Part shown: one piece after another, positions 1,482 through 62,705 of the stretch
How positions within the stretch are numbered: the stretch's first letter is position 1
Layout: each line of letters begins with the position of its first letter
Assembly (NCBI GenBank): GCA_030272155.1
Contig: CP126207.1
Span: 2,790,001 to 2,854,000, forward strand
Length of the DNA stretch: 64,000 nt
From: Tetradesmus obliquus
Taxonomy: Eukaryota > Chlorophyta > Chlorophyceae > Sphaeropleales > Scenedesmaceae
Direction: 5' to 3'
Program-made: the position numbers and the translations under genes
The notes under the pieces: model-generated
The model's input: the letters and a program-made list of their open reading frames with translations, nothing else
Told to the model about the DNA's origin: nothing
Databases searched by the model: none

Positions 1482-1829
1482 TCACCAGCTGCTGCTGCTG
1501 CTGCTGCTGCTGCCCATGCGCTGCTGCCCCTGCAGCAGCGCCCTGCTCCCAGCTCGCATCAGCAGCAGCCAGCCGGTGATAATCACAGTACGCCCCACCT
1601 CCCGCCGTATCCTGGCACCATTCACCGGGTGGCCCTCAGCCAGCCGCTTCAGCGCAGTAGCAGCCATGGCCGCCAGCGCGCCGTTCACCACCTGCTGCTG
1701 CTGCTGCTGCTGGGCCCCGAGTGCCAGTGCCACTAGGCCAGCCAGGGCTCCCGGCTCTGCTGCAATGTGGGACTGATTGAGGCCATGGCGCTGCGCCAGG
1801 GTCCCTTTACAAGACGTCACACCACACAC
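1482..1829 (-). pseudogene. decayed copy of the HEAT/ARM gene's terminal exon
   Basis: The minus strand encodes a second version of the ARM-type unit found in the terminal exon at 1817-2239. Shared phrases are IAAEPGALAGLVALAL, VVNGALAAMAATALKRL and RIRREVG. It lies immediately downstream of that exon and then runs into poly-serine and stop. This fits the rule seen across the window that copies of an exon's 3' part trail behind the real exon. It could instead be a second genuine repeat exon of the same gene. Confidence 0.6.
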
Positions 1830-4800
1830 ACGTGCTGTTGCTGCTGCTGGGCCTGCTCAGCCAGCAGCCCCTGCCACCTCACCAGCTGCTGCTGCTGCTG
1901 CTGCTGCTTGGGGCCATGCCGAGTCTCCTGTGCACCACTGTCAACCCCGGCTAGCGCATAGCACTCGTTATACTCGCAGTACGCACCAACCTCCCGCCGG
2001 ATCCTGCAGCGGTTCACCGGGTGCCCTGCAGACAGTTGTCGTAGCGCAGCAGCAGCCATGGCCGCCAGCGCACCATTTACTACCTGCTGCTGCTGCTGCC
2101 CGAGTGCCAGTGCCACTAGGCCAGCCAGGCCCCCCGGCTCTGCTGCAATGCTGCTCTGGTTGGGACTATGATGTTGGGCCAGCGTGCGCAGTGCGAGGGC
2201 AGCAGCACAACCCAAGCCGGCATCGGTGTCGTGCAGCATCTGTAGCCGGCGGCAGCAGCAGCAGCAGCAGCAGCAGGAGCTGACAGAGTCAGCACAGTGG
2301 CACGCAGCGCCGGTGCGGCTGCACAGCCCACCCTTGTGCTTGCACAGCAGCAGAGCTGACCCTGAAGCCATACCCACTCGCACGAGTGCTGCGAGGCCTG
2401 GTCAGTGGTCAACGTGGGTTATCTCCCTCATGCTTGTTTTTGAGAGAGATAGTTACATGTGGGTCCTGGCACCATCTTGGATGGTATGAGCCACAACAGG
2501 TTGAACACAAGGTCAGAGACCAGAAAGGAGAGTGAGCACCGTAAAACACAACGCACACCCTGCTTTGTACAACGTATCAAGTCTGATGTGCTGGACAGCA
2601 TGCCCACCCACCTGCACGAGTGCTGGTATGGCTCCTAGTGCGTGCCCGATCTGGCTACTAGCATGCATGATGCTCGCCCCACCAGCCGCCTGAGGCCAGG
2701 TGAGTCAGCGCTGCTGCAACGGTTCCCGCTTGAGAAGCAGTCACTGTACACTCACCTGCACGAGTGCTGGTATGGCTCCTGGCGCCTGAGACAGGAACTC
2801 CCCCGGCTTCTCTACTGGCTTCCCACTGCTTCATCATGTTGGCATATTGGCCCATGCTGCAGCTGTGCACACACCCACAACAGCTGCACACCCTCCATCC
2901 AACCAGCAGTGCTGTCACAGGTGCACGTGTACACTAACATCAACCAGCACCAAGTGGCATGCCAGCCCACCTGCACAAGAGCTGGTATGGCTCCTGGCGC
3001 CTGCCCGACTTTGCTCTGCATGCCCCACCAGCCGCCTGAGGCCAGATGAGTCAGCGCTGCTGCTGCACTGCCACGCACCCAGCTTTCTTCATCACTCAGC
3101 AGAGATACCTACAACGCAACGGCAGCAGGCAGCAGTTGGTTGGACGAAGATGCCAGCGTGCGTCATGTGCTGCAGCTGCGCACCCAGCTCTCCTCATCAG
3201 TCAGCATTTCCACCAGGACAGTGTGCAGCAGGCAGCCCAGCAGCCGGCGCAGTTACTGTTGGTTAGTTTGGTCGTACGTGTTTGTGTCAGGGCTGCCGCC
3301 GCGCTGCCGCGCACCCAGCTCTCTTCATCACTCAGCAGTCCCACCAGTACAGTGCGCAGCAGGCAGCCCAGCAGCCGGCGCATTTACTGTTGGTTAGTTT
3401 GGTCATACGTGTTTGTGTCAGGGCTGCCGCCGCGCTGCCGCGCACCCAGCTCTCCTCATCGCTCAACAGGAAGACCTGCAACACAGTCAACAACCAACAC
3501 AAATACTACTGGTCAGTTTCACGTGTGTTTGTTTCAGCGCTGCTGCTGCGCACCCAGCTCTCCTCATCAATCAGCGATTCCAACAGTACAGTGTGCAGCA
3601 GGCAGCCCAACAGCCAGTGCATCTACGATTGTTCAGTTTAGTCATACGTGTTTGCGTTAGCGCTGCTGCCGCTGCCATGCAGCCAGCTCTCCTCAAGGGC
3701 TGAGCAGTGTGCAGCGCAAAAACGATCTCTGCCCATAAGCCACCTTGGCTGCTCGTCAGCGCTGCGCTGCAGTCGCTGCGGCCAAAATGCGGCATACTAT
3801 CACCTGCTGCCTGATGGCCCCCTGGACAGCAACTACTGCTGGATGCTCATTGATCGTGAAGCTGTCAAGCGCGCTGCGCCCCGCCCAATCACAACATAGG
3901 AAGCAGGATGCGTTCAGTCGCTGTCCGCTCACCAGAGCTGCTGTGACGCCTCGGGTAGAGGGTGTGGAGCCCAGGGACGCCGCCCCTGGCCACACACACC
4001 CTCTTAGCCTTAACTTACCCAGGAGCTGCAGAGCTGCCTGGGTAGTCACTCACTCACTCACTCACTCACTCATGACGCCTGGCTGCACAGCGATGTGGTA
4101 CCGGTTGAACGCGCCCCGCCTAATTTGGCTCACAGACATGCAGCTGCAAGCACTCAGCCTATGTTTAGGGCTGACTCACCAGGTCGTCAATCACGCCTGG
4201 GTGCACCGCAATCCTGAAGCGGTTGAACGCGCTGCGCCCCGCCTGCAGCGACAGCGCGGACGCGGCCTGCTGCCGCACCGCGGGGTCAGGGTCCTGCAGG
4301 GCCGCTGCTGTTGACGCAATCGTCTGCAGGACAGCACACATTGTTTTGGTCGTTTACGAATTAAAGAGGACAGGATCGGAGATGCCTGCGTGTTCAGATC
4401 TTGCAGAGCCGCTGCTGTTGACGCGATGGCCTGCAGGAGAGCTCCAGGGATGCGTTTTGGGCGGCACAGCAGGACTATAATCACCGGGGAGCATACTGCT
4501 GCATGTAACGGATGTATTGCAGCTTGTAGGACGCCGTGTGGGCTGCGCCATGTTTGTGGCAGCTTGCAGGACACGCACGCACGCAAACATGTGCGAGGTT
4601 CAAGTTCCTGGCGTACACAAAGGTAGCCGCATGAGCTGTGTAAAAAAGGTGCTGCATCCTGCAGGCGACGCAGTTTGCCAGGCAGCAGCATGGGGCCCCA
4701 CACACTAGCATGCAACTGTGTCGGCCGTCGACACAGCTAGGCGACCTTGCAGGGACCTGGCCACTTTGACAGTGCAACAAATGTGCAATTCAGCCAGTTG

Positions 4801-62000: not shown

Positions 62001-62705
62001 GAACTCCTCGCTGCTGCTGGGTTCAGCTGGGTGTAGTTCCACCAGTTAAAGTTCAAAGCAGGTGGCGCCACTTGAGAACGCAACAGTACAGCCGCGAGCA
62101 TGCAGCTGCAGTGCACAGTCCAGGTAGGGTTGTTGCGCCGATTCGCAGCACAAACCTCTGCGCCAGGTTCAGCTGCAGCAGCCCTGCCTGCTGCTGAAAC
62201 ATCAATCCAAATTCAACATCATACATCTCCAGCTGCTTGCACGGCTGTATATTGCTGCTGAGCTGCCAGCAGTCCATCACCAAGTTAGCCACTCACGCTG
62301 GTGTAGTGCAACCAGCCTGCTGTAGTGTCCTGCAGGACAGTGCTTCCTCGCTCCCAGCAGTGCTGGCCACACATGAGGTCGAAGGTCGTTGGGTACGCCA
62401 TCTGCCACGAGCTCCACCAGCGATTCAAATAGGTCAGGGGCGTGCCTCTCCCCAAGCAGCAGCACCTCCCGCAGCACCGAGGCTATCAGCTTCGAGCAGG
62501 ATGCGTCATGCAGATTTAAGTTCGCAGTAGCCGCTGCTTCCAAGATGCCTAGCTGCTCTGCTGCGGTCTGCAGGTAGCTTCGCCACTTGGCAGTGTTGCG
62601 TACAGCAGCAGATATCCAGATCGGCGTGTATGTTTGCAGCAGCTCCGCGTAATCTCTGTTCACTTCTAAGCCGTAGTTGTCTCTCAGCGGAGGTGTCGGA
62701 TCCAT
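53098..62705 (-). CDS. TBC-domain Rab GTPase-activating protein, about 1588 residues
   Basis: Eleven exons on the minus strand: 62705-62297, 62026-61949, 61866-61596, 61166-61082, 60859-60521, 59929-59727, 58682-58601, 58319-58233, 57446-56277, 55575-54652, 54216-53098. All joins keep frame. The TBC domain spans residues about 100-490: DGVPNDLRPHVWPALLG, the arginine finger LQIDKDCHRTFPGHD (IxxDxxR), the glutamine finger LGYCQGMNFVAG (YxQ), then LLAIAEHVLPGYYSP and GMPFETVARLWDAAFLER. This accelerates GTP hydrolysis by Rab proteins in membrane traffic; both catalytic fingers are intact. The C-terminal 1100 residues are low complexity (polyQ, polyA, polyS, an acidic run EEEEEEEE). Exons 2 and 3 are the least certain. 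Introns carry exon-edge copies. Confidence 0.9.
55795..56095 (-). repeat. trailing copies of TBC exon 9 end
   Basis: After the donor at 56277, two copies of the exon's last 50 bases (YRILHDSSGLRSKAIAQ and YCILPDSSGPRSK with donor GTGGG) lie at about 56090-56030 and 55850-55797. Both preserve the donor. Confidence 0.88.
57680..57985 (-). repeat. leading copies of TBC exon 9 start
   Basis: Three copies of acceptor plus LQALQHCFKAEVVAD-like sequence lie at about 57980-57945, 57830-57795 and 57710-57680, before the real exon start at 57446 (ALQHCFRAEVVAELEAA). Each keeps CCTGCAG. Confidence 0.9.
59104..59645. repeat. tandem duplication, 221-bp period, carrying TBC exon 6 end copies
   Basis: The block around TACAAAATCGGGCCGCACAA recurs at 59211 and 59432 (221 bp apart) with near identity. 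Each unit contains, on the minus strand, a copy of the end of exon 6 (FETVARLWDGAYLERS-like, then a GTGCG donor). A third, partial unit reaches about 59645. Another trailing copy with GTGTGGG donor is at 58965-58915. Confidence 0.88.
60165..60375 (-). repeat. two trailing copies of TBC exon 5 end
   Basis: After the donor at 60521, sequences encoding IAEHVLPGYYSPAMVAPQ with GTG donors recur at about 60370-60310 and 60232-60168. They match the real exon end at 60580-60521 almost exactly. Confidence 0.92.
60621..60672. repeat. coding CAG/CTG tract in TBC exon 5
   Basis: About 16 triplets inside the TBC-domain exon, read GCA on the minus strand in this frame, insert a polyalanine loop between GALLLVL and ESLAFGCLLAI. 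An insertion within the catalytic domain is unusual and probably forms a surface loop. Confidence 0.85.
61167..61214. repeat. CAG/CTG tract at a TBC 3' splice site
   Basis: About 16 units read CTG on the coding strand and end in the CAG acceptor for exon 4 (starts 61166). Confidence 0.9.
61325..61500 (-). repeat. two trailing copies of TBC exon 3 end
   Basis: Copies of the arginine-finger segment (QIDKHCHRTFPGHDCEL and INKDCHRTFQGTTGE) with GTGAG-like donors lie at about 61496-61445 and 61400-61340, behind the real exon end at 61596. Confidence 0.88.

Follow-up and report, generated by a model that had tools for sequence, protein, structure and literature searches.

Results

The window analyzed here, a stretch of 64,000 nucleotides from the green alga Tetradesmus obliquus (positions 2,790,001-2,854,000 of contig 17, in a genome of 104.66 Mb in 17 contigs), holds genes on both strands whose introns carry rows of partial copies of the ends of the neighboring exons. 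Such introns are confirmed as a genome-wide feature, with nothing special to the window. Most of the gene names proposed in the initial annotation stand: Pfam supports eIF3j (PF08597, 5e-29), TBC (8e-14), YCII (6e-7) and Arm/HEAT, and an alignment to PDB 1e5x supports threonine synthase. The exceptions are the SDR gene, for which the best Pfam match (PF13460, 1.7e-4) falls under that family's cut-off, and the FAS1-like gene, which had no match in the Pfam search. When one 10-kb stretch was scanned against Pfam in each frame, a single PALP match resulted, and Rfam gave no match at gathering scores.

The genome was sampled as 20 random 10-kb loci plus the window, and a two-strand gene finder was trained on these sequences with no outside data. 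It settled on donors of the GTG(A/C)G type, on TGCAG acceptors and on introns with a median length of 257 bp, and its 47 models with 237 introns, from the 20 loci and the window, form the ab initio set, in which the polarity counts draw on the window and 12 of the 20 random loci. Its models of chaperonins held repeated peptides, in one case repeated six times, and versions reduced to a single copy could be aligned with PDB chains (CCT4, CCT5, CCT1, CCT8, CCT7, CPN60B1 and threonine synthase) over one or two colinear stretches. The plant type of the threonine synthase, the name of one closest PDB relative (Chaperonin 60B1) and the TGCAG acceptors are in keeping with a green alga. The homology set thus comprises seven genes, threonine synthase in the window and five CCT genes and CPN60B elsewhere, with 62 exons and 52 introns set by spliced alignment to the PDB chains and doubtful exons removed. 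Copies were detectable from 22 bases upwards. Unless the ab initio set or the window is named, the counts below refer to the seven genes.

There, 73 direct copies of an adjacent exon edge lie in 29 of the 52 introns, and in the window the ab initio list has 49 copies of an exon in its own adjoining intron, distributed over 7 gene models on both strands, which confirms the original claim that introns here hold such copies. The upstream exon has a direct copy in 21 of the 52 introns and the downstream exon in 22; reversed copies were found in 0 and 1, respectively (1 of 104 tests). In the ab initio set, copies occur in 45 of the 223 downstream introns and in 29 of the 212 upstream ones, with none reversed. 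When exons were compared with introns of other genes, matches occurred in 4 of 744 cases (ab initio set, 0 of 1494), so the dispersal among unrelated genes that would mark introners or transposons was not seen in these comparisons, no whole-genome scan for copies having been made. Identities run from 75 to 100%, mostly 84 to 97%, which makes an assembly artefact unlikely.

The polarity is equally consistent. If copies of an exon's 3′ edge follow it and copies of its 5′ edge precede it, as had been claimed, each copy has a predicted edge. Downstream introns hold 40 copies, of which 36 reach the exon's 3′ edge to within 6 nt and none its 5′ edge, and of the 33 copies in upstream introns, 29 reach the 5′ edge and none the 3′ edge; all 65 edge-reaching copies therefore sit at the predicted edge, bearing out the claim. 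The ab initio set is looser, with 41 of 56 and 31 of 40 copies at the predicted edge, 2 and 4 at the other and 14 and 6 at neither, probably in part because the gene finder sometimes models copies as exons. An even spread of copies over exons, set beforehand as the outcome that would speak against the claim, was not observed: density is 0.52 to 0.74 per base within 60 bases of the edge and at most 0.12 past 80. By thirds of exons of at least 120 nt, it is 0.86, 0.59 and 0.89, the middle third being lower but not empty because edge copies extend into it. One correction is needed, in that the polarity itself largely follows once a duplication crosses a junction and one junction is kept. Less expected are the concentric order of the copies, their centering on the junction, and the preservation of their exon parts and splice sites.

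Intron length follows the number of copies, at 307 + 161 bp × copies (r = 0.76, p = 5e-11), and copy-free introns have a median of 308 bp, so that intron growth, as the initial annotation put it, is a fair description. The unit nearest each junction has a median length of 138 bp (interquartile range, 121-186; 43 cases), to which the exon contributes a median of 66 bp and the intron 72 bp, and sites of the same kind are likewise spaced at a median of 138. The junction lies near the middle of the unit, with an exonic fraction of 0.46 (standard deviation, 0.09) against about 0.24 if uniform (Kolmogorov-Smirnov p = 8e-6, for those 34 of the 43 nearest copies whose spacing does not exceed 200 bp). 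The two kinds of copy are found together in 14 introns, a co-occurrence above chance (Fisher p = 0.005), and in 14 of 14 the arrangement is concentric, with the upstream-exon copies first; the other 15 of the 29 copy-bearing introns have a single kind. The innermost donor and acceptor are 32 to 731 bp apart in 13 of the two-kind introns and 1048 bp in the remaining one. Head-to-tail units that include the intronic part recur with a period of 142 bp in CCT4 and 383 bp in CCT8. One CCT4 array has 5 upstream-edge copies and 2 of the downstream edge. The divergence of copies showed no rise with distance from the real junction.

The copied splice sites are well preserved. Copy donors have a median strength of 8.1 bits, equal to that of real donors, and copy acceptors 8.4 against 9.5; GT is kept in 33 of 36 copy donors and AG in 25 of 28 copy acceptors (26 of 26 in the ab initio set). 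In 22 donors altered at +4 or +6, the changes at positions +1 to +6 number 1, 1, 2, 14, 3 and 22, and GTRNG is kept in 18. The far ends of the copies are different, with sites whose median is no better than random intron: acceptors near the start of 3′-edge copies score 4.9 bits against 4.3, donors near the end of 5′-edge copies are weaker than random, and none of the 73 copies reaches both exon edges. The copies thus look like half-exons, mostly unable to be exons alone. The proposal that they are decoy splice sites is half right, in that the copy donors match real ones in predicted strength; their use, on read-through, would meet an in-frame stop before the donor in 32 of 36 cases.

Exon and intron parts of the units are unequally preserved. 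Over 64 copy-real and 41 copy-copy pairs, the exon part is 0.89 to 0.91 identical and the flank 0.57, where the null is 0.48. Identity is 0.92 to 0.96 in the exon bases closest to the edge, high at the consensus positions and near random past them. Two copy pairs are 100% identical over 45 exon bases and have unrelated flanks, and copies 1 and 3 of array C14 are equally diverged in the exon part (0.89) and the flank (0.88). Relative to the real exon, the copies differ at codon positions 1, 2 and 3 in 74, 63 and 301 cases, a third to first/second rate ratio of 4.4 (confidence interval, 3.1-6.3); 292 of 436 scored differences are synonymous, with a ratio of nonsynonymous to synonymous divergence (pN/pS) of 0.16 and 2 stops in 1572 codons. 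Changes private to one copy number 67 replacement and 57 silent, and those between closest copy-copy pairs 57 and 59. Recombination-like incompatible site pairs account for 8 of 14, over six arrays, although repeated mutation is also possible. In-frame AG/GT joins of at least 6 bits are available in 25 of the 73 copies with no frame-specific excess, shifts of −6 and +6 giving 23 and 19 and other shifts 1 to 14.

The same tendency to local direct repetition is visible without any annotation. In a self-comparison of the window, 161 repeat pairs less than 6 kb apart comprise 158 direct and 3 inverted ones (the satellite at 819-1435 included), and only 6 of 167 pairs are more distant. Across the 20 random loci and the window, direct pairs with a separation under 2 kb number 335, the window contributing 167, against 12 inverted ones, and Markov resampling of the 20 loci as a control produced 10 inverted pairs and no direct one; direct pairs occur in 16 of the 20 loci. 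The spacing of 181 nonredundant pairs has its mode at 100 to 150 bp and a lower edge near 96 bp (5th percentile), with no bias to multiples of three (31%). In the seven genes, 109 direct pairs include an exon in one member in 78 cases and are intron-only in 31 (some are copy-copy, and the split double-counts), where introns make up 27,746 of 36,264 bp. Copies are direct and adjacent, and well-preserved arrays show head-to-tail units. The suggestion of tandem duplication across junctions with one member left functional is therefore well supported, by direct orientation in 158 of 161 window pairs, by reversal in 1 of 104 tests, and by the approximately 161 bp gained per copy. In one random locus, L017, local direct repeats make up 59% of the sequence, and 7 direct pairs are separated by at least 2 kb.

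Of the 49 copies listed for the window, 29 touch the predicted edge, 7 the other and 13 neither. Several of the wrong-edge entries may stem from short predicted exons that are perhaps copies themselves. One model, 11275-5878, fuses the Arm gene with the YCII gene and contributes 6 of the 49; for 5 of these 6, coding similarity among armadillo repeats replaces the reading as exon-edge copies. With the homology-set borders, threonine synthase has 5 copies, all 5 on the predicted edge (Table 1).

Table 1. Exon-edge copies in the window and the exons to which they belong
Feature	Position	Strand	Identity or support
Threonine synthase exon (aligned part), 3′ edge copied downstream	18064-18143	+	spliced alignment to 1e5x
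Copy of 3′ edge of exon 18064-18143, donor GTGCGC	18333-18403	+	89% over 71 bp
Copy of 5′ edge of threonine synthase exon 19734-19890, AG before copy	19452-19523	+	82%
Second 5′-edge copy of the same exon, AG before copy	19582-19669	+	84%
Real threonine synthase exon	19734-19890	+	spliced alignment to 1e5x
3′-edge copy of threonine synthase exon ending at 22328, donor GC not GT	22427-22504	+	76%
3′-edge copy of threonine synthase exon 23366-23469, donor GT lost	23592-23661	+	90%
3′-edge copy of predicted eIF3j exon 15023-15279	14871-14944	-	96%
5′-edge copy of predicted eIF3j exon 13834-14009	14068-14127	-	97%
SDR-like gene, unit array (Tandem Repeats Finder period 115 bp at 29630-29899) with copies of short coding edge AEEAVKGQGFAR	29625-30735	+	
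Two 5′-edge copies of predicted SDR-like exon 31705-31800	31389-31438, 31493-31560	+	84-86%
3′-edge copy of predicted exon 34036-34266 (FAS1-like gene of the initial annotation)	34440-34496	+	91%
Second 3′-edge copy of predicted exon 34036-34266	34735-34791	+	88%
Three 5′-edge copies of predicted exon 37056-37384	36408-36530, 36619-36741, 36817-36931	+	84-85%
Three 3′-edge copies of predicted TBC-gene exon 59727-59929, repeating with a period of 221 bp	59104-59646	-	85-89%
3′-edge copy of predicted exon 60521-60856 (60168-60242 also modeled as exon)	60312-60364	-	98%
Three 5′-edge copies of predicted exon 57140-57446	57663-57701, 57786-57824, 57940-57977	-	92-97%
3′-edge copy of predicted YCII exon 6650-6765	6499-6564	-	75%
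Copy of exon bases 4292-4335, upstream of HEAT-like exon 4180-4341	4399-4442	-	86%

Several other features of the window deserve mention. The satellite at 819-1435 is a perfect 36-bp unit in 17.1 copies (100% match), and its minus-strand open frame repeats MFVRCEAVLQGS. The 129-bp repeats at 8629-9978 are coding armadillo/HEAT repeats of 43 residues, distinct from the intron copies. A minus-strand frame at 41714-42757 that matches a tyrosine recombinase (PF00589, 2e-6), possibly a mobile element, lies within about 14 kb that have few local repeats, and the same repeat-poor stretch holds a minisatellite of 49 to 52 bp (45054-45355). A direct duplication of about 820 bp (56441-57259 and 63182-64000; 98.7% identical, 6.7 kb apart) contains the end of the TBC gene model. 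The window is rich in CAG/CTG runs. In the 52 homology-anchored introns, CTGCTG occurs at 4.95 per kb in the last 100 nt against 2.28 in the first, and GGGTTT at 1.90 per kb in the first 100 nt against 0.19 in the last.

Discussion

Direct orientation, edge polarity, concentric order, centering, length per copy and unequal preservation are all demonstrated in the seven genes. The account that we consider probable is that introns in this alga grow by repeated tandem duplication of junction-centered units of about 138 bp, with the exon halves and their splice sites retained. A duplicated unit would span the splice site, with about 66 bp of exon edge on one side and about 72 bp of intron on the other, and each event would add a half-exon and one splice site inside the intron, the outermost donor and outermost acceptor staying in use, as protein homology suggests. 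Repetition would build the concentric arrays, with upstream-exon copies by the donor and downstream-exon copies by the acceptor. Since a half-exon mostly lacks a good second splice site, it would probably go unrecognized as an exon, leaving the coding sequence unharmed; exon definition may thus protect the gene. After birth, the intronic half would diverge fast but the splice consensus and the exon half would persist, the exon halves perhaps held alike by exchange with the real exon, by selection on the copied sites, or by both. Because some arrays have head-to-tail units that include the intronic part, duplication across the junction is the best source for the copies, and exon halves so unlike their flanks are not what is expected of ordinary dead copies.

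What keeps the exon halves and splice sites intact is less straightforward, and selection, exchange with the real exon and nested splicing may each be a cause. Exchange agrees with exon part and flank being decoupled and with the incompatible site pairs, although alone it does not yield the codon pattern; the conservation confined to the consensus would suit a putative selection on the copied sites. Dead copies as the full account of the seven genes were rejected, since arithmetic from the position-1 and position-2 rates by base class, with copies dead since birth, predicts a codon ratio of about 1.8, and the observed value is 4.4, though 2.9 in the ab initio set. Coding selection on the copies, at first favored by the pN/pS value, was weakened by the poor second site and by the private changes. 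Indirect selection through array contraction is rejected by argument only, the silent divergence being too large for the exchange rate that it would require. The centering on the junction can reflect a break or repair process that is itself junction-centered.

A number of observations weigh against this account. The centering could instead reflect a selective filter, the 22-base detection limit, or both; such a filter may act on units with under about 45 bp of intron, which would deprive the real acceptor of a branch point of its own, and on units holding a whole exon, which would introduce a second splice site. Local direct repeats cover 20.4% of intron bases and also 12.2% of predicted intergenic bases, so junctions are not the sole targets, and the seven genes have 7 inverted pairs beside the direct ones. 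Only 27 of 64 copy-real flanks exceed the 95% null; most units thus have no intronic homology now, and it is chiefly the younger arrays that point to a tandem origin. A possible acceptor of at least 7 bits lies near the start of 11 of 36 upstream-edge copies, and 5 of the 49 window entries cover an entire exon, short or predicted (29492-29530, twice; 35903-36042; 15829-15885; 13682-13729). Indels are not multiples of three in 10 of 11 cases, and some copies are rich in replacement changes. The ab initio set gives weaker signals throughout, with GT kept in 29 of 41 copy donors, an exon part of 0.85 beside a flank of 0.60, an identity of 0.44 to 0.51 just past the donor, and a third to first/second position ratio of 2.9. 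The homology set is small, consists mostly of chaperonins, which are unusually conserved, and comes from one strain. Finally, no single model of upkeep fits all the numbers.

Several of these points belong to an alternative that we regard as unlikely though by no means far-fetched, namely, that the copies are inert relics of generic local tandem duplication striking at random, in which the survivors are those that left one good junction and the dead copies decay. The repeats in predicted intergenic DNA, the equal divergence of exon part and flank in some copy-copy pairs, as in C14, and the indels and stops in some copies would all follow, and retention of GT in 33 of 36 donors matches, by arithmetic, the outcome expected of about 4% neutral change, with the lower figure of the ab initio set in the same direction. 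However, random duplication does not lead one to expect units centered on the junction, nor exon-involving pairs that outnumber intron-only ones in genes that are mostly intron. It is also at odds with exon halves about 90% identical beside flanks whose mean is near the null, two pairs of them fully identical, and with changes in copied donors that avoid the consensus positions.

A second alternative, nested splicing, is more doubtful still. Here, the concentric copy sites would work, and long introns would be removed from the inside out, each inner step joining copy edge to copy edge. The strict concentric order suits this, as do the co-occurrence of both kinds of copy, the consensus kept in and between copies with neighboring bases near random, and the innermost donor-acceptor distances, all but one of which lie below 1 kb. 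But copy numbers on the two sides of an intron are often unequal (5 and 1, 5 and 2), about half of the copy-bearing introns have one kind only, and of the inner distances, one (32 bp) is smaller than the shortest intron of the set and another equals it (83 bp).

It is very improbable that the copies are redundant exons, that is, alternative coding ends giving the same protein: the mostly synonymous differences, low pN/pS and scarcity of stops agree with that idea, but the far-end sites are at or below random, the in-frame joins show no frame-specific excess, and replacement changes are as common as silent ones among private changes and closest copy pairs. Least credible is insertion of exon-edge pieces by transposition, introner-like elements or cDNA fragments, which would explain exon parts shared beside unrelated flanks but not copies that are gene-specific, almost all direct and fixed in order, that form head-to-tail units where well preserved, and that carry a donor or acceptor consensus absent from spliced cDNA.

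Among the full-text literature matches listed, we recognized no arrays of exon-edge copies in introns, most subscription papers lying outside that coverage. In mutually exclusive or duplicated exons, the copy inside a neighboring intron is an entire exon that has both of its splice sites. These resemble the present case in that exon sequence recurs in the adjoining intron, but the seven-gene copies are halves, usually with one site and never with both edges, and only the 5 window entries noted above are whole. A close relative is tandem genomic duplication in the AGGT model, which makes introns from duplicated AGGT inside exons (PMC3443670, PMC2891723) and shares with our case a local tandem duplication of exon-containing DNA whose extra copy is hidden by splicing (PMC3443670, PMC4974935). 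In that model, the new intron arises within an exon and so should start with a copy of the downstream exon and end with one of the upstream exon. Here, the order is the reverse in every two-kind intron, existing introns are enlarged, and whole junctions are copied. Published partial exon duplications near splice sites likewise change intron structure, but in the excerpts available they are isolated cases at new intron positions (9 sliding and 5 duplication of 31), with no junction-copy arrays described. Stwintrons and other nested introns (PMC8469720) also place several splice sites in one intervening sequence, but there a splice element is interrupted, whereas here the nested sites bear half-exon copies and are known from sequence alone. 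Small tandem duplications are reported to arise at staggered breaks as a general repair route (PMC8355091); in the available part of that report, the insertions are below 100 bp and splice junctions go unmentioned, whereas the units here are about 138 bp and centered on junctions.

These introns bear on two old questions, how introns lengthen and how real splice sites are told from equally strong neighboring copies. One genome here offers a set of natural experiments, 36 copied donors in seven genes, with a median strength like that of real donors, at known distances and beside the real edges. A junction-centered duplication of near-nucleosome size would also link DNA breakage or repair to splice sites. 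Since the gene finder took copies for exons, annotations of the genome may hold duplicated peptides. Should nested splicing prove to be true, introns would grow by added processing steps, the inner ones rejoining the same exon-exon junction, and reads from copy-copy joins would pass for mature mRNA.

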